Source: Sphaerochaeta associata
GTDB taxonomy: Bacteria > Spirochaetota > Spirochaetia > Sphaerochaetales > Sphaerochaetaceae
DNA: 64,000 nt
Assembly (NCBI RefSeq): GCF_022869165.1
Contig: NZ_CP094929.1
Span: forward strand, 3,286,001 to 3,350,000
Reading direction: 5' to 3'
Made by a program: the position numbers and the translations under genes. The notes under the pieces are model-generated. The model saw only the letters and a program-made list of their open reading frames with translations, was not told the origin of the DNA and did not search any database. Of the stretch, positions 42,877 through 50,099 are shown piece by piece. Within the stretch, counting starts at the first letter, position 1. The number at the start of each line of letters is the position of its first letter.

Positions 42877-43356
42877 TCAAGAGTACAACAATTGGGAAAT
42901 TATCTTCGCAGCATCGTCGAGCAGCTTCTGGTCCTCAAGCGTAAAGCGTGAAAGCGTGGGGCTGTCCACATCCAACACCCCCACCACCCTGCCTTTTGCA
43001 TCGACAAGGGGAGCGACCACTTCGCTGTTGCTTGCACTGTCGCAGGCGATGTGATCGGCAAAGGCATGCACATCGTCGACGCGCACACTCTTGCCGGTAC
43101 GGGCGCACAACCCGCACACCCCCCTGGAAAAGGGGATGTCGGTACACGCCACCTTACCCTGGAATGGACCGAGCATCAAGTTCTGACCTGAATCGTCGAC
43201 AAGGTAAAACCCCACCCAGTTGATGTCTCCCAGATGTTCGGCAAGCAAGGCCGAGGCGTTGGCCAGATGACAATAACGCCTGGGAACAGAACCATCCCAA
43301 TCGCGTATGAGAGCAGCCAGCTGCTCAAGCATTCCCTCTGAATTGTGCAAATCCAT
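42877..43356 (-). CDS. msrC: Free methionine-(R)-sulfoxide reductase (GAF domain)
   Basis: 159 aa, a single GAF domain. The three cysteines of the fRMsr family are at C71 (KVACTDIPF), C81 (RGVCG) and C105 (HIACDSASNSEVV), which match C84, C94 and C118 of the E. coli enzyme. It reduces free methionine R-sulfoxide in the cytoplasm. It is 16 bases downstream of the second hydrogenase gene, so it appears to be the last gene of that operon. ATG 43356 follows AAGGAG. Confidence 0.92.
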   Translation of the reverse strand: MDLHNSEGMLEQLAALIRDWDGSVPRRYCHLANASALLAEHLGDINWVGFYLVDDSGQNLMLGPFQGKVACTDIPFSRGVCGLCARTGKSVRVDDVHAFADHIACDSASNSEVVAPLVDAKGRVVGVLDVDSPTLSRFTLEDQKLLDDAAKIISQLLYS

Positions 43357-43372: not shown

Positions 43373-44833
43373 TTATAGTACCGACCGCATGGCTTTCACC
43401 GGGGCGGCAGCCTTGTTGCCCCCCCGCAGCTTCATAGCCACCGAGGGTTTTACTACCACACCCGGGCCGTTGATGCAACCGCCTTCGCAGCACATCACCT
43501 CGACCAAGTCGGCTTCGGCCGGACGTTTCTCCCAGATTTTCATCGTCCTGAACATCTTCTTATCGACCCCATTGACCGGCAGCACCTGCACTTCGTGACT
43601 CGGGGCAAAGCGGCTGAGCACACACGAGGCAACCCCACCGGAGAGGGCGAACTGCCTGCAGTCCTCAAAGGAGGCGGTATCACCCAAGTCGGCTCCCTCC
43701 ATCTCCCGCACATCGATGTTCTTGGCAATGAACAGGGAGGCGAGCTCGCTGAAGGTAATCACAGCGTCGATGGTCTTCAACCGTACAGCCTCCACCTTCT
43801 TGGCAAGACAAGGGCCGATGAAAACACTCTTGGTTGCAGGATTGAGTGCTTTTGCCTTCAAAGCAATATAGCCCATGGGTGAGAGGGCGGACGAACGTCG
43901 TTCATCGAGGAACGGCAGGTGCTTGTCCACCAACTCCATGTACGCAGGACAGCAGCTGGTAGTCATATACCCTTTCCCTCTTGCTTTACGCTCCGCCAGT
44001 TCCTCGGCCTCATGCAGACTCGTTGTCTCGGCTCCTTCGCTGACCTCCAGTACAGAAGAGAATCCAGCTGCAAGCAAAGCCGCCTTGATCTGTGAAAGCG
44101 TACCGGGAAACTGACCTTCGATTGCAGGAGCGATCAGGGCTGTGACATGCTCTTCCTTGGCGAGCATCTTGACCACCGGAATCAAGGCCGAGCGCTCGAC
44201 GATGGCCCCGAACGGGCAGCTCATTGCACATCGTCCGCAGCTGATGCACTTCTGGTAGTCAATCTCCACATACCCCTCTTCATTCTTCTTCACTGCATTG
44301 ACAGGGCAGGCTTCCTCACAGGGGACCGGAATATGGACAACTGCATGGAAGGGACATACTTCCTTGCACTTGCCGCAGCGTATGCAGCGGCTCTCGTCTA
44401 TGTGAGCCTGCCCACCGGCGAACGTGATGCAATCCTTGGGGCAGTTTGCCAGACAGGGCCGGGCAAAACAGCCCCTGCAAGCGTCACTGATGAGATAGCG
44501 GTCCGGCGGACAGGAAGAGCAAGCCGTACTGATGGTCGTCAGGATCGGAGCTGCGGGTTTATCTTTCTGCATCACCTCTTCGACATATTCGGAGAGGCTT
44601 TTCAGCTCATCGTCATCGGTTTCGATGTTGATCCCCAAAAGCGCCATGATCCTGTAGCGGACCATCGCCCGCTCCTTATAGATGCAACACCTGTTGGGAA
44701 CCCTCTGCTTGGGAATGATCCTGATGGGCAGCTTGTCGACATTCTCCTTCAACGTTCCTGCAAAGAACTCCTTGAGCACCTCTGCATGAACCTGACGCTT
44801 CATCAGCGTATATTGGTTGTTCAATTCAAGCAC
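43373..44833 (-). CDS. [FeFe]-hydrogenase, monomeric ferredoxin-domain type (group B-like)
   Basis: 486 aa. The start is GTG 44831-44833, 6 bases after GGAGG and overlapping the upstream stop; TTG at 44848 is an alternative. An N-terminal cysteine-rich region and ferredoxin clusters (CIRCGKCKEVCP, CISCGRCAMSCP) precede the H-cluster domain: L1 TTSCCPAY (C294, C295), L2 IGPCLAKK (C342), L3 EVMCCEGGC (C449, C453). The proton-relay cysteine is kept. The form TSCCPAY and GPCxAKK rather than TSCCPxW and MPCxxKxxE suggests group B. Electron partner unknown. Confidence 0.88.
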   Translation of the reverse strand: MLELNNQYTLMKRQVHAEVLKEFFAGTLKENVDKLPIRIIPKQRVPNRCCIYKERAMVRYRIMALLGINIETDDDELKSLSEYVEEVMQKDKPAAPILTTISTACSSCPPDRYLISDACRGCFARPCLANCPKDCITFAGGQAHIDESRCIRCGKCKEVCPFHAVVHIPVPCEEACPVNAVKKNEEGYVEIDYQKCISCGRCAMSCPFGAIVERSALIPVVKMLAKEEHVTALIAPAIEGQFPGTLSQIKAALLAAGFSSVLEVSEGAETTSLHEAEELAERKARGKGYMTTSCCPAYMELVDKHLPFLDERRSSALSPMGYIALKAKALNPATKSVFIGPCLAKKVEAVRLKTIDAVITFSELASLFIAKNIDVREMEGADLGDTASFEDCRQFALSGGVASCVLSRFAPSHEVQVLPVNGVDKKMFRTMKIWEKRPAEADLVEVMCCEGGCINGPGVVVKPSVAMKLRGGNKAAAPVKAMRSVL

Positions 44834-45092
44834 GGGTCGCCTCCGCAAGAAGTTTGCACAGTTTCTCCTGGTTCACACTGCCGTAGACATTCTCCCCGAT
44901 GCGAACATAGGGAGGGCGCTCCTTGGATTGGGCGTCCTTGCAGCCGCCGATGCAGCTTACCCCCTCGATCTCGCAGCCGCCAAGAACAGCCGGATCCAAA
45001 AACTCGTTATAAAGGAGCAGGTCGGCACCTCCCTGTACAAAACAGGCGGTTCCTACACAAATCTGTACACGTACTTTATCTTTCTTACCCAT
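44826..45092 (-). CDS. Small thioredoxin-like [2Fe-2S] ferredoxin (NuoE C-terminal type)
   Basis: 88 aa. The cysteines C12-x4-C17 and C47-x3-C51 (ICVGTACFVQ, SCIGGC) are the 2Fe-2S ligands of NuoE/HydC-like domains. It overlaps the hydrogenase gene by 8 bases (GTGCTTGA), implying coupled translation and perhaps a physical partnership in electron transfer. Confidence 0.88.
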   Translation of the reverse strand: MGKKDKVRVQICVGTACFVQGGADLLLYNEFLDPAVLGGCEIEGVSCIGGCKDAQSKERPPYVRIGENVYGSVNQEKLCKLLAEATRA

Positions 45093-45107
45093 ATGCTTCT
45101 CCTCTGT

Positions 45108-46301
45108 TCAGATATATTCCTGCGAGGTCTCTTTCAGATACACATCTTCCAATGCCTTTCGGAGCCTGCCGATCAAGTTTCTTCGAATCCCTATCTCCAC
45201 CGGAATGCTCGGGTCCTGATGGGCCTCATTGATTTTCGTCCCCACGATGAAGTGCACCTGGTCGCTGTCCTGCATGACTTGGATGAACTTCTTCACAGCA
45301 TCATTGGTCATCGACCGAACCGGCTTCTTCTGCTCCAACGCGGTGGCCACCTTGCTGAGTGTGAGCATTCCTTCGGTCACCAGGTCTATACCCTCCATCA
45401 TCGAACACGGAGGAACCTGGGGCGACCAACAACTCATATCCACTTTCAAGGGTTTTTGCATCAGACGGGAGACGATTTGCGCCGTTGTTCCACCACTGAC
45501 AATTTTTTTCCCCTCGAACTCCTTGATCTTCTGCACCAGCTGTTCATCGTGCTCCTTGGTGAACGGAGGACCGGTGACCACCAGCGTACGCCTGGGCCTG
45601 CGGACATACACCACCATGCAGGTGATGTCGTCCTTGGCGCTCAGGCGGTCCAGGCTGTGCGCACGACAGACAATGGCCTGGGCGAGATCATGGCTGGAGA
45701 TATCGGGATTTGCCTCAATCTGGGTACGGGTGAACTCCCGCACCCCATCCAGGCGCCAACCCAGGGGAAGCGACCTGCCCATACCGGCCTGGGTGACCCC
45801 GTCACTGAAAATCACGAGACGGCTGCCGATCGGCAGTGTAAGCAGGGAGTGGCCCAGCACCTCTTTCTTGAATGCTCCATCGCGCTGCAGATCGATATGC
45901 TCGACATCCCACTGCACGCTCGTGCTTCCTTGAAACACCAATGCGCTGGGATTGTCGTACTCCACCAGGTTCATGGCGACCTGGTCGCTGGCAAGCATCC
46001 TGAGGTCTGCGATGGTAAAGGTTGCATAGCTGATCTTGCGCTCCTTGCACACCGGCAGCGTATTCATGATGATCCGCGCCGAATGTGTCAGGTCCATCGG
46101 GCTGAAGCTCAGTTTGTGAGCCATTCGGGCCGTCAAGCTGGCAAGGACATTCGCCTTGACTCCACTTCCGAGTCCATCACTGAGCGTGCACACGATTTGG
46201 TTGTTCTCGGGGTTCCGGGAGAGCAGAAACACATCCCCCCCGATTTTCTGCCCGTCCTTGTAGATTTGGGCGTAGTCGACATCGATGAAAAGGTCGTTCA
46301 T
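45108..46301 (-). CDS. SpoIIE-type PP2C serine/threonine phosphatase
   Basis: 397 aa. The first ~240 residues are a PPM/PP2C SpoIIE domain with metal-binding motifs SDGLGSGVKA (D42), FSDGVTQAGMG and DDITCMVV. The last ~150 residues form a separate region of unknown function with GGTTAQIVSRL and CSMMEGIDLVTEG. It overlaps hydS by 4 bases (ATGA). A phosphatase next to a sensory hydrogenase points to signalling by protein dephosphorylation; the target is not in the operon. Confidence 0.87.
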   Translation of the reverse strand: MNDLFIDVDYAQIYKDGQKIGGDVFLLSRNPENNQIVCTLSDGLGSGVKANVLASLTARMAHKLSFSPMDLTHSARIIMNTLPVCKERKISYATFTIADLRMLASDQVAMNLVEYDNPSALVFQGSTSVQWDVEHIDLQRDGAFKKEVLGHSLLTLPIGSRLVIFSDGVTQAGMGRSLPLGWRLDGVREFTRTQIEANPDISSHDLAQAIVCRAHSLDRLSAKDDITCMVVYVRRPRRTLVVTGPPFTKEHDEQLVQKIKEFEGKKIVSGGTTAQIVSRLMQKPLKVDMSCWSPQVPPCSMMEGIDLVTEGMLTLSKVATALEQKKPVRSMTNDAVKKFIQVMQDSDQVHFIVGTKINEAHQDPSIPVEIGIRRNLIGRLRKALEDVYLKETSQEYI

Positions 46302-48109
46302 GACTCAACCTTGGTGAAGCCGTCGCTCTGACTGCTCCCGGGGACCTTGAAGGCATCGATGAGGCTGTTGAGCATGATCTCGGTCTCGGCGGCATTCTCA
46401 CCGAGCAGGCTGGCGATCTGCTGCACCGTCTCCAAACTCTTCTGAATGACATCCTCGGCTTTCTTGATCACCGTCTCCCTTCTCACCGTGGGGGTGGTGA
46501 TGTCTTCGAACAAGGCTCCTACAAGATGCTGTTTTTCCACCGAGAAGAAAGTCACCTTCAAAAACTTGTCTTGATAATGCAACCGATACTGCTGCGCCCT
46601 GGGATTGGAAAACTGATTCTTGAATTTCTCATGGAACGGTACGAACCGTTCAAGCGGCAAGCCGCCGACCAGACCCAGCAAGTCGCCTTCGATGGAGAAG
46701 TCGATGTCACCGAAAAGCTTGAGAAAGCTGTTGTTGCAATCTACGATTTTCAGCTGGTCATCGACGATGACCACACCGATCGGTATGGTTCTGAGCAGTA
46801 CATCAATCTTGCTCTGTGCCTCCTTTCGCATCTTGGTGACACACATCTCCGGCTCGGCCATCCCGTCGAGATACGCGATCGCCATCTCGCGGCAACTGTT
46901 GTAGCCGCAGCCGCCGCAGTTCAGCTCCTCGGCTTTGTCACGCTTGCCGAGAATCTTCAAGGCTCTTTCTATCTCCAATTCGCTGTGTATCGATACGAAG
47001 CTGGAAACCGGCGGGTTCTGCACACCGTTTCCTGGTTTTTCAATCAAGGAATATCCCTTCTCAAGCAAGGTGGAAACAAACGACCGGTCACCGGCGAACA
47101 GCGGGCCTTCATCAGTGATACGACTTCGGGTATAGCGCGAAGAACTACCTTTCTTTGCCGCCGAGGATCGCCCTTTCTCACAACCCGGCCCATTGATGCA
47201 ACCGCCTTCGCAGAAGAGCAGCTCCAAAAAGTCGGAATTGATTTGACCTTTCGCCATTCCCCCAAGCGTCCCCACCACCTGCGTCGCGCCGCTTATGGCG
47301 ACAGCCTTGGTCTGGAACGGGTCGCTTCCCCAGGCAAGCGAAGCGATCATGCCGCCTTCGATCGGATAAAGGGTCGAGGAACCTGCCCTGCAGGGTACAA
47401 ACGGAGGGACCAAGGAAGGATCGGCGTCTATCTGCTGGGCAAGCAGATCCAAATCGATGTTCTCCAATTTCAGCCACGTGCGAAGCTCCTCAAAGGTAAG
47501 GGCGAAATCAGGGTATCCAGGCGTCTCATCGGCCTCCACCTTCTTTGCGATGCAGGGACCGATGAATACGACTCCGATCTCCTGTCCATAAAGCTTTCTC
47601 AGGTAGGCACTGTGGCATTGAAGCGGAGAGGGAACCTCGCTTAAGGCGGGAACCAAGGATGGGTAATACTTCTTGACCGTTTGTACAACGGTGGGACAAG
47701 CTGTGGAAATCCACGCGCAAGTCCCATCATGCCCGCCGGCATGCACTTCAATTGATTCGTTGACCAAGGCGGCCCCGATGGCGGTCTCACTTACCGCAAA
47801 AAAACCAAGACGCTCCAAGGCCAGGACCAAGGCGTCGACGCCTTGGACAAACTCACTGGCGGCCGAGGGTGCAAGACTGCAGTAAATCTTTCTCCCACTG
47901 GTTAGAAACTGCCTGACCCTGGCCAAGTCGTTGCGGATTTTCTTTGCATGGGAAGGACAGATATCGACACAATGGCCGCAATAGATGCAGCGATCCTTCA
48001 CGACCACCGCCGAGCCGTCCTTGACCTGAATCGCCTTCACCGGACAGCCCCGGACACACTTATAACAGTCCCTGCACTCAGTCAGTTCGGTATAGATGGG
48101 ATGGATCAC
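46298..48109 (-). CDS. hydS: HydS-like sensory [FeFe]-hydrogenase with PAS domain (group C)
   Basis: 603 aa from GTG 48109 after GGGAGG. Order: two 4Fe-4S clusters (C12/15/18/22 and C41/44/47/51), H-cluster domain with L1 STACP (C138), L2 IGPCIAKK (C186) and L3 LFCEGGC (C300, C304), a further 4Fe-4S motif (C398, C401, C406, C423), a PAS domain (about 435-540) and a helical tail (545-590). In L1 an alanine (A137) replaces the proton-relay cysteine. These are hallmarks of HydS sensors, which detect H2 or redox state rather than turn over fast. It overlaps genes on both sides. Confidence 0.88.
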   Translation of the reverse strand: MIHPIYTELTECRDCYKCVRGCPVKAIQVKDGSAVVVKDRCIYCGHCVDICPSHAKKIRNDLARVRQFLTSGRKIYCSLAPSAASEFVQGVDALVLALERLGFFAVSETAIGAALVNESIEVHAGGHDGTCAWISTACPTVVQTVKKYYPSLVPALSEVPSPLQCHSAYLRKLYGQEIGVVFIGPCIAKKVEADETPGYPDFALTFEELRTWLKLENIDLDLLAQQIDADPSLVPPFVPCRAGSSTLYPIEGGMIASLAWGSDPFQTKAVAISGATQVVGTLGGMAKGQINSDFLELLFCEGGCINGPGCEKGRSSAAKKGSSSRYTRSRITDEGPLFAGDRSFVSTLLEKGYSLIEKPGNGVQNPPVSSFVSIHSELEIERALKILGKRDKAEELNCGGCGYNSCREMAIAYLDGMAEPEMCVTKMRKEAQSKIDVLLRTIPIGVVIVDDQLKIVDCNNSFLKLFGDIDFSIEGDLLGLVGGLPLERFVPFHEKFKNQFSNPRAQQYRLHYQDKFLKVTFFSVEKQHLVGALFEDITTPTVRRETVIKKAEDVIQKSLETVQQIASLLGENAAETEIMLNSLIDAFKVPGSSQSDGFTKVES

Positions 48110-48366
48110 GCCTTCCCTCCCCTGGTGTGCAGCTCGGTTTTAACCAGTTCGAGAACGCTTGCAGTATCGAGTCCGCTGTAGGTCTCACTCCCGATTCTCA
48201 GGTTCGGCCCTTTTGCACAGTTGCCAAGACAGAGATGGCCGACCAATTCAACACGATCGGATAGATTCTCTTCCTTGAGATAGGCCTCCAAGGCCTGCAG
48301 GGTTTGCGAATTGCCTCGTGCAAAACAAGAGCTCCCCAAGCAGAGTTCCACAACCAATGTATCCAT
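48106..48366 (-). CDS. Small thioredoxin-like [2Fe-2S] ferredoxin heading the hydrogenase operon
   Basis: 86 aa from ATG 48366 (GTG at 48369 also possible). 2Fe-2S cysteines are C9-x4-C14 and C46-x3-C50 (LCLGSSCFARG, HLCLGNC). It is paralogous to the protein at 44826-45092 and overlaps hydS by 4 bases. Comparable small ferredoxins precede HydS in Thermotoga-type loci. Confidence 0.87.
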   Translation of the reverse strand: MDTLVVELCLGSSCFARGNSQTLQALEAYLKEENLSDRVELVGHLCLGNCAKGPNLRIGSETYSGLDTASVLELVKTELHTRGGKA

Positions 48367-48388
48367 CACTACGACCTCTCAACCTGTT

Positions 48389-48400
48389 ATTGAGCTCAAT
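48389..48400. promoter_or_regulatory. 12-bp perfect palindrome at the hydrogenase operon start site
   Basis: ATTGAGCTCAAT overlaps the -10 box edge and the predicted start point. It is a candidate operator. It does not match the Rex (TTGTTAA-type) or FNR (TTGAT-N4-ATCAA) consensus well. Confidence 0.4.
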
Positions 48401-48427
48401 CGTACTGCGAACACCCTTACAAGTCAA
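48399..48427 (-). promoter_or_regulatory. Promoter of the hydrogenase/HydS operon
   Basis: Minus-strand TTGACT (48422-48427), 17-base spacer, TACGAT (48399-48404). The start is about 25 nt before the first gene. Confidence 0.6.
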
Positions 48428-48567: not shown

Positions 48568-49239
48568 TTACCACTCGTCATCTTCATCCAGCAAATCTTC
48601 CTTGGCCATCTTCCGCTTGACCTTGGCAGAGAGCACGGCAAAGCTGGTCGCCAAATCGGTGCGCTGCACCACCACGCGGGGGGGAAGCTTCAGATCCTTG
48701 GGAGCGAAGTTCCAAATGGCGAGGATTCCGCATGCCACCAGTTTCTCTGCAACCTCCTGGGCTTGCACGGCAGGAACTGCAAGTACGCCGATGTTCACAT
48801 GGTTTTCCTCAAGATATTGCTGCAGATGGGTGAGAGGATAAACCGGGACATCCCCCAGTTTTGCACCCCATTTCTGTTGGTCGATATCGAAGGCGGCGAC
48901 TATCTTCAGGCCATAGCTCTCAAAGCCCTCATACCGGGCAAGAGCAGAACCGAGATGCCCGGCCCCGATGAGCACCGCATCGGTGGCGTTGTCCCAACCC
49001 AAGGTATGAACAATCGCATCAATGAGCTTCACCACGGTGAAGCCCACCTTCGGCTTGCCTTCGATTCCTGTACACGAAATATCCTTGCGGACCTGAATTG
49101 GTTTAAGGCCAAGCTCATCGGCGAGCATGGTAGCCGATACCATCTCCATCCCCTCGTCGCGATAGCCTTTCAGAAGGCGGAGGTAGGAAGGAAAGCGCTT
49201 GATGGTAGGGATAGGTATGCCACGGTTGTCTGTTGCCAT
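48568..49239 (-). CDS. rex: Redox-sensing transcriptional repressor Rex
   Basis: 223 aa. The start is ATG 49237-49239 after AGGAG, overlapping the ispH stop. An N-terminal winged helix (IPTIKRFPSYLRLLKGYRDEG, LGLKPIQVRKDISCTG) is followed by a Rossmann domain with VLIGAGHLGSALARY (GxGxxG) and the conserved AFDIDQQKWG. Rex senses the NADH/NAD+ ratio and represses fermentation and hydrogenase genes in anaerobes. It sits directly upstream of the hydrogenase operon, a plausible target. Confidence 0.95.
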   Translation of the reverse strand: MATDNRGIPIPTIKRFPSYLRLLKGYRDEGMEMVSATMLADELGLKPIQVRKDISCTGIEGKPKVGFTVVKLIDAIVHTLGWDNATDAVLIGAGHLGSALARYEGFESYGLKIVAAFDIDQQKWGAKLGDVPVYPLTHLQQYLEENHVNIGVLAVPAVQAQEVAEKLVACGILAIWNFAPKDLKLPPRVVVQRTDLATSFAVLSAKVKRKMAKEDLLDEDDEW

Positions 49240-50099
49240 CATTTCTCCTGTTGCAGTGCATCCACGATGTTCTCTACGAGAGAGTGCGGAGTGGAGGCTC
49301 CCGCTGTTATACCCAGTATAGCACACTGGCGCATTTCATCTACGATTTCTGATTCATCCTCTATATGCCACGCTTTCCTGCCCATTTCAATAACCATGGA
49401 GTACAACGCCCTGGTATTTGCGCTGTCCTTGCCTCCGATGACCACTACTCCGTCGCACTGCCGGGCGAGCTCGATCAAGGCGGTCCTGCGGTTCACCGAG
49501 CTCGGACAGACCTCATTTGCAAACACCACTTCAACACCCTTCCGGCGCCAGGAGATCAACACATCCTTTATCTGGGCCCACAGGCTCTGGTCGAACGTGG
49601 TCTGCACGAAGACAGCGTAGGCGACTCCGTCTTCAGGCTCTCCTACATCGTCAAGGGCTGTGACGAGCTTGGTGGTGATGGGCTTTCCATCAAGCAGAAC
49701 CTCAAGCATGGCCGTCGATTCGGGGTGCTTATTGTGTCCGACAACGAGAATTGTATGCGTGCAAGCATAGCGGCCGATATGCAAAAGGTTGCGCTTGACC
49801 ACCGGGCAGGTGGCATCGACTATATGGTATCCGGCATCCAGAAAATCGGAACGCAACGCATCGCCGACTCCATGCGCCCTGATCACCACCAAGCCTTTTT
49901 CATGCCCTTCGGGCCCGGATATCTCTGTCATCCCCTCTTGGGCGAACCGGTTGCAGACTTGCTTGTTATGAATCAATTTTCCCAAGGAGTATACAGGAAG
50001 ACCTGCCCTGCGGGCATCCTCTATGGCATTTTGGGCCATATCAAGGGCTCGGGAAACTCCCTTGCAATACCCCATGGTATGCGACATGACTATTTTCAT
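49239..50099 (-). CDS. ispH: 4-hydroxy-3-methylbut-2-enyl diphosphate reductase
   Basis: 286 aa, last enzyme of the MEP isoprenoid pathway, a 4Fe-4S reductase. Cluster cysteines are C12 (GYCKGV), C98 (DATCPVV) and C198 (NEVCPSS), matching C12, C96 and C197 of E. coli. HGV and the SANT motif (DSANT) are also present. The start is ATG 50097-50099; the ribosome site (TGGATG) is weak. A terminator ends only 15 bases upstream, so transcription must come by read-through or an unseen promoter. Confidence 0.96.
   Translation of the reverse strand: MKIVMSHTMGYCKGVSRALDMAQNAIEDARRAGLPVYSLGKLIHNKQVCNRFAQEGMTEISGPEGHEKGLVVIRAHGVGDALRSDFLDAGYHIVDATCPVVKRNLLHIGRYACTHTILVVGHNKHPESTAMLEVLLDGKPITTKLVTALDDVGEPEDGVAYAVFVQTTFDQSLWAQIKDVLISWRRKGVEVVFANEVCPSSVNRRTALIELARQCDGVVVIGGKDSANTRALYSMVIEMGRKAWHIEDESEIVDEMRQCAILGITAGASTPHSLVENIVDALQQEK

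Follow-up and report, generated by a model that had tools for sequence, protein, structure and literature searches.

In the HydDB classification, [FeFe]-hydrogenases of group C3 are termed 'phosphatase-linked (putative)', with a possible sensing of H2 via Ser/Thr phosphatases (PMC5037454). The described operons closest to this type are hfsABCD of Thermoanaerobacterium, in which a PAS-bearing hydrogenase (HfsB), a serine phosphatase (HfsC) and a further hydrogenase (HfsD) follow each other (PMC5707799, PMC11837493), and the hydS cluster of Ruminococcus albus, where a sensory group C hydrogenase and a putative Ser/Thr phosphatase are co-transcribed with a hydrogenase (PMC6776011). HfsD was called group B (PMC8924675), which is the 'colonic-type' of HydDB (PMC5037454). 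The spirochaete Rectinema cohabitans has a C3 enzyme in addition to A1/B-type and A3 enzymes (PMC6052044). Here we report on an operon of this kind in Sphaerochaeta associata, located in a stretch of 64,000 nucleotides (contig NZ_CP094929.1, positions 3,286,001 to 3,350,000; the window). It probably encodes a protein phosphatase gated by H2 or redox state, together with one output of this phosphatase.

The first-pass annotation of the window had listed two ferredoxins, the sensory hydrogenase HydS, a SpoIIE phosphatase and a second [FeFe]-hydrogenase at this position, and all five genes were recovered by Pfam and TIGR matches. Read along the minus strand, on which all of them lie, they encode a [2Fe-2S] ferredoxin (Fd1; 48106..48369), HydS (46298..48109; 603 amino acids), a SpoIIE-type phosphatase (45108..46301), a second [2Fe-2S] ferredoxin (Fd2; 44826..45092) and a monomeric group B [FeFe]-hydrogenase (43373..44833). 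Overlaps of 4 base pairs (bp) join Fd1 to HydS and HydS to the phosphatase, a 15-bp gap parts the phosphatase from Fd2, and Fd2 overlaps the group B hydrogenase by 8 bp if the latter starts at GTG 44833. The list of open reading frames gives TTG 44848 instead, which would extend this overlap to 23 bp; we prefer the GTG because a GGAGG stands just 5′ of it. Three of the four junctions are therefore overlapping (-4, -4, +15, -8 bp) and not all of them, as had been annotated. The overlaps suggest a translational coupling of the operon genes, whereas the fixed stoichiometry formerly derived from them does not follow, and one junction is without overlap at all.

Compared with hfsABCD, the order of HydS, phosphatase and last hydrogenase is the same, but Fd1 takes the first place here where HfsA stands there, and Fd2 is placed before the last hydrogenase. 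In R. albus a group A1 enzyme is the co-transcribed hydrogenase, and the cluster also contains an alcohol/aldehyde dehydrogenase gene (PMC6776011). The operon is thus of the already catalogued C3 type plus group B, in hfsBCD order, and the H2-sensing hypothesis is already known as well. It shares with group C3 of HydDB the H-domain, the PAS domain, the adjoining Ser/Thr phosphatase and the proposed sensing of H2, and no feature was found that sets it apart from this group. In the literature on related operons we found no account of the C-terminal domain of the phosphatase, of a count of the HydS-phosphatase linkage or of the lack of STAS and Hanks-type partners, which are presented below.

HydS begins with a double 4Fe-4S module (47945..48088; residues 8-55, Fer4_10) with two CxxCxxCxxxC motifs at residues 12 and 41, followed by the H-domain (47180..47890; residues 74-310, PF02906 (Fe_hyd_lg_C), 5e-40). 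Alignment to solved hydrogenases revealed that all four Cys ligands of the H-cluster are kept (C138, C186, C300 and C304). At the position of the proton-transfer Cys, in the loop-1 motif STACP, stands Ala137. Behind the H-domain there is a Cx2Cx4Cx16C motif of exact spacing (46838..46924; residues 398-423, PF04060 (FeS), 2.5e-8), as given for hydrogenases of groups C and D (PMC8163306), and then a PAS domain (46496..46801; residues 437-538, PF13188 1.9e-7, PF13426 8.1e-6). In a maximum-likelihood tree of 54 hydrogenase sequences, HydS belongs to a clade (support 99/96) with 23 further HydS proteins, all of them phosphatase-linked and from many phyla, and group D proteins appear as the sister of this clade when the tree is drawn midpoint-rooted. 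The H-domain ligands, the replaced proton-transfer Cys, the Cx2Cx4Cx16C motif, the PAS domain and the adjoining Ser/Thr phosphatase are all features of group C3, and by these motifs, this neighbour and the tree of phosphatase-linked HydS proteins we assign HydS to that group.

The HydS-phosphatase unit is conserved. A profile search with the phosphatase in one genome per species delivered at least 586 relatives, of which the best 80 loci were kept and 71 were testable for the upstream gene. HydS is encoded directly 5′ of the phosphatase in 68 of these 71 loci, which belong to many phyla, and the 4-bp overlap recurs in 27 loci. In the remaining three, HydS also lies upstream, and the start is mis-placed or the frame broken. 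A recurrence in about 70 loci of many phyla argues that the pairing is not due to chance. In Marinifilum the order HydS-phosphatase, ferredoxin, HydS-phosphatase is found in tandem, so that the pair was duplicated as a unit, with the second HydS branching apart; together with the near-constant adjacency this points to two genes which travel and duplicate together. The surroundings are more variable: a group B hydrogenase is encoded near the unit in 39 of the 71 loci and bifurcating HydABC genes in 11 loci. In Acidobacteria, a Nitrospirae and a deltaproteobacterial metagenome-assembled genome (MAG), the unit lies within or beside the maturation set HydG-AspA-HydF-HydE (NCBIfam matches; 5 loci), and such a neighbourhood of HydE, HydF and HydG is expected if HydS carries an H-cluster. 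When the phosphatase loci were searched for a conserved extra gene, HydE/HydF/HydG, AspA, response regulators and ABC proteins were encountered, and no consistent new partner.

The phosphatase consists of two parts. Its SpoIIE-type PP2C domain (45600..46301; residues 1-234, PF07228 6.4e-10) has the metal-site residues D23, D42, D167, D224 and D225, all invariant across 25 homologues. The model of the protein (predicted local distance difference test (pLDDT) score 88.6) was matched by Foldseek to SpoIIE of B. subtilis (5mqh, E 9.4e-13). The catalytic fold and the metal-site Asp residues are therefore those of the SpoIIE/RsbU phosphatases. Differences to B. subtilis SpoIIE lie in the cytosolic nature of the protein and in a C-terminal domain which takes the place of the N-terminal regulatory domains. 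A genome-wide search, aimed at the SpoIIE family among the PP2C phosphatases, gave this protein as the only member.

The C-terminal domain (45108..45599; residues 235-397, about 163 residues) is not mentioned in the literature on group C3 that we found. It gave no Pfam match below E 0.13, and its profile gave none below E 0.6 against the sequences of the PDB. Folded alone on 52 sequences with AlphaFold 2, the domain yielded a confident alpha/beta model (pLDDT 91.4), and a Rossmann-like fold is confidently predicted. Four conserved motifs, TGPP, GGTT, VTEG and VGTKINEAHQDP, are placed at the C-terminal ends of the predicted strands. In Rossmann-like domains, ligands are bound at the C-terminal ends of the strands, and we infer from the model that the domain may bind a ligand. 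A Foldseek search with this domain alone delivered nothing below E 0.001. The highest VIA-align scores were obtained with domains of complex I NuoG, formate dehydrogenase and formylmethanofuran dehydrogenase (Z 7.0-10.2, all other rows at most 6.4); as sequence support is lacking, this likeness of the model to NuoG and formate dehydrogenase is to be read as a resemblance of folds only.

For the second hydrogenase, membership in group B is indicated by TIGR04105 (496.1 bits, cut-off 450) and by the maximum-likelihood tree, where it clusters with 11 other sequences (support 99/99). Its loop motifs are TSCCP (L1), GPCLAKKVE (L2) and EVMCCEGGC (L3). The annotation had ascribed a complete H-cluster to this enzyme, and indeed its four Cys ligands are retained, as is the proton-transfer Cys (C299/C300, C347, C454 and C458); the Met beside the loop-2 Cys, on the other hand, is replaced by Gly. 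Both ferredoxins have a thioredoxin fold. Fd1 (87 amino acids; PF01257 3.7e-9) resembles the C-terminal part of NuoE, with ligand Cys at positions 10, 15, 47 and 51, and Fd2 (88 amino acids) matches the same family at 5e-7.

Taken as a whole, we consider an operon for an H2- or redox-gated phosphatase and one of its outputs the probable reading. The H-cluster bound by HydS would be tuned to a slow turnover. The C-terminal 4Fe-4S region and the PAS domain would relay the state of HydS to the SpoIIE-type phosphatase, whose gene follows immediately. By removing a Ser/Thr phosphate from a partner other than an RsbV-type STAS protein, this phosphatase would alter how strongly hydrogenases and fermentation enzymes are expressed or how active they are. 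HydS might be fed or drained by Fd1, while the group B hydrogenase might form with Fd2 the effector pair which produces H2 from reduced ferredoxin. A small ligand or the partner is probably bound by the Rossmann-like domain, which would provide a second input. The view of HydS as a reader of H2 or redox state which acts via the phosphatase, as annotated before and proposed earlier (PMC5037454), is supported by the anatomy of the proteins, by the linkage across phyla and by the genetics of related operons (PMC5707799, PMC6776011). In Thermoanaerobacterium, deletion of hfsA or hfsB raised adhE transcripts two- to three-fold, and the hfsB deletion led to a higher hydrogenase activity (PMC5707799). 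Co-culture of R. albus led to a 111-fold drop of the cluster that holds HydS and the putative phosphatase, which was attributed to low H2 (PMC6776011).

Several observations weigh against this reading. Deletion of hfsC, the phosphatase gene, left adhE transcripts of T. saccharolyticum unchanged, as did deletion of hfsD (PMC5707799). In TamHydS, a relative from group D, the C-terminal cluster was not reduced by H2 (PMC13104023). Of the maturation proteins, HydF (TIGR03918) was searched for; one control genome passed the cut-off, whereas no protein did so in the genome of S. associata, where the best matches read as other GTPases (EngA, Era, MnmE and HflX). HydF may be absent, diverged or missed, and maturation of the H-cluster in this genome is therefore hypothetical. 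The contact between HydS and the phosphatase and an effect of H2 on the phosphatase activity are hypothetical as well.

The substrate and the opposing kinase were sought in the whole genome (one 3.55-Mb contig, positions on which are marked C1). In a classical RsbU-V-W switch, the phosphatase would dephosphorylate a STAS anti-anti-sigma factor, and the sigma factor thus freed would transcribe the hydrogenase genes. The SpoIIE/RsbU-type phosphatase domain would fit, as would the RsbW-like ATPases of the genome, which carry N and G boxes, but no stand-alone STAS protein (RsbV/SpoIIAA) was found genome-wide, although STAS and STAS_2 were both detected in control genomes; the sole match to either family lies in the tail of a transporter of the SulP type (549 amino acids). 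The classical switch therefore fails on its substrate and appears very unlikely, and the anti-sigma antagonist named in the first-pass annotation as a possible target is not supported. Hanks-type kinases, likewise detectable in control genomes, were not found in the genome. Candidates for the opposing kinase are an HPr kinase and two RsbW-like ATPases, all of them encoded away from the operon. The gene of the first RsbW-like ATPase (140 amino acids) has a DRTGG gene on one side and a gene for a group D hydrogenase-like protein on the other (C1:2718840-2720942), and this trio recurs in other Spirochaetota. The group D gene (C1:2719605-2720942) is comparable to TamHydS (PMC8163306, PMC13104023) and, unlike HydS of the operon, has neither a PAS domain nor a phosphatase and lies apart from the operon. 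The second RsbW-like ATPase is part of a longer protein with a CBS-like N-terminal half (C1:1333659-1335649) and adjoins DRTGG-like and PHP-like genes, which were named by eye and similarity and not by a family search; this arrangement, too, is repeated in several Spirochaetota. These pairs allow a switch without STAS protein, in which the two RsbW-like kinases phosphorylate the adjoining DRTGG proteins on the Ser of SDL[LM]SDV and the HydS-linked phosphatase reverses this, with the group D protein as opposing H2 or redox sensor. Among 30 related Spirochaetota loci, the RsbW-like gene has a DRTGG neighbour in 22, the Ser-Asp of the motif is invariant across 28 DRTGG proteins, and the N, G1 and G2 boxes are kept in nearly all RsbW-like kinases, which makes the DRTGG protein a candidate phospho-acceptor. 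The single SpoIIE-family phosphatase of the genome and the positive association between the phosphatase and the RsbW-like kinase at genus level (odds ratio 5.6, p 1e-4, phylogeny uncorrected) also speak for such a switch. Against it, the kinase was not found in 20 of the 41 Spirochaetota genomes that bear the phosphatase, nor in 20 of the 31 genomes behind the other loci, the association among FeFe-bearing genera only is at p 0.04 (again uncorrected for phylogeny), and none of the 80 phosphatase loci contains a DRTGG or RsbW-like gene. An obligate pairing of kinase and phosphatase was rejected, as the co-occurrence is only partial. Altogether we regard the DRTGG switch as a lead, though an unlikely one. 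The same holds for its extended form with two opposed hydrogenase-derived sensors, where the group D protein would govern the RsbW-like kinase and the C3 HydS the phosphatase, both acting on a shared DRTGG substrate and with the Rossmann-like domain as metabolite input.

Two further explanations were weighed. The phosphatase could act locally and post-translationally on an enzyme of the operon or on a ferredoxin-linked enzyme, with no role in transcription; it would then be part of a complex that includes HydS and the group B hydrogenase. The tight packing of the genes and the two thioredoxin-fold ferredoxins flanking the hydrogenases would agree with this, but many phyla have the unit with no group B hydrogenase nearby (only the 39 of 71 loci mentioned above have one), and deletion of hfsA or hfsB changed the transcripts of adhE, which is unlinked (PMC5707799). 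A purely local action is hence quite unlikely in our opinion. Even less can be said for HydS as a slow catalytic hydrogenase whose link to the phosphatase is inherited synteny only: all H-cluster ligands and 4Fe-4S motifs are kept in HydS, but the proton-transfer Cys is replaced, a PAS domain is present, and the pair was kept across many phyla despite changing surroundings and was duplicated as a pair in Marinifilum. We hold this explanation to be highly improbable, and a phosphatase under the control of H2 or redox state remains the reading we favour.

An open question is the way in which sensory [FeFe]-hydrogenases relay the signal of H2, and the 2026 study on TamHydS called it critical to find the interaction partners (PMC13104023). 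The linkage described here names the phosphatase as a first candidate partner. The undescribed C-terminal domain, the lack of STAS proteins and Hanks-type kinases and the pairs of DRTGG and RsbW-like genes narrow the question of the target to a short list. These results may also bear on the partition of electrons between ethanol and H2 in hfs-type fermenters and on the production of H2 in the gut by group B enzymes.

Upstream, the operon is adjoined by a gene for the redox-sensing repressor Rex (48568..49326, minus strand; NF003994, 261 bits, cut-off 130). It stands in this place also in Sphaerochaeta relatives, and upstream of HydS in one Geobacteraceae MAG. The Rex gene is likely a separate transcription unit, and Rex is possibly a regulator of the operon; no Rex operator (TTGTTAA-N4-TTAACAA, up to three mismatches allowed) was detected near the operon. 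A candidate sigma-70-type promoter (TTGACT-17-TACGAT, 48399..48427, minus strand) is located 5′ of Fd1; it is weak and as frequent in shuffled sequence, and the scans for promoters and terminators around the operon generally gave no more matches than shuffled sequence. Downstream, 16 bp 3′ of the group B hydrogenase and on the same strand, a GAF-domain protein is encoded (42877-43356), which is possibly a free-methionine sulfoxide reductase.

In total, five genes with an [FeFe]-hydrogenase domain were detected in the genome. A second bifurcating-type HydA (C1:1936234-1938018) has the loop-1 motif TSCSPGW with a Ser where a cluster-ligand Cys stands, and adjoins a gene for a fusion protein of 1090 amino acids with HydB-like and glutamate-synthase-like parts.

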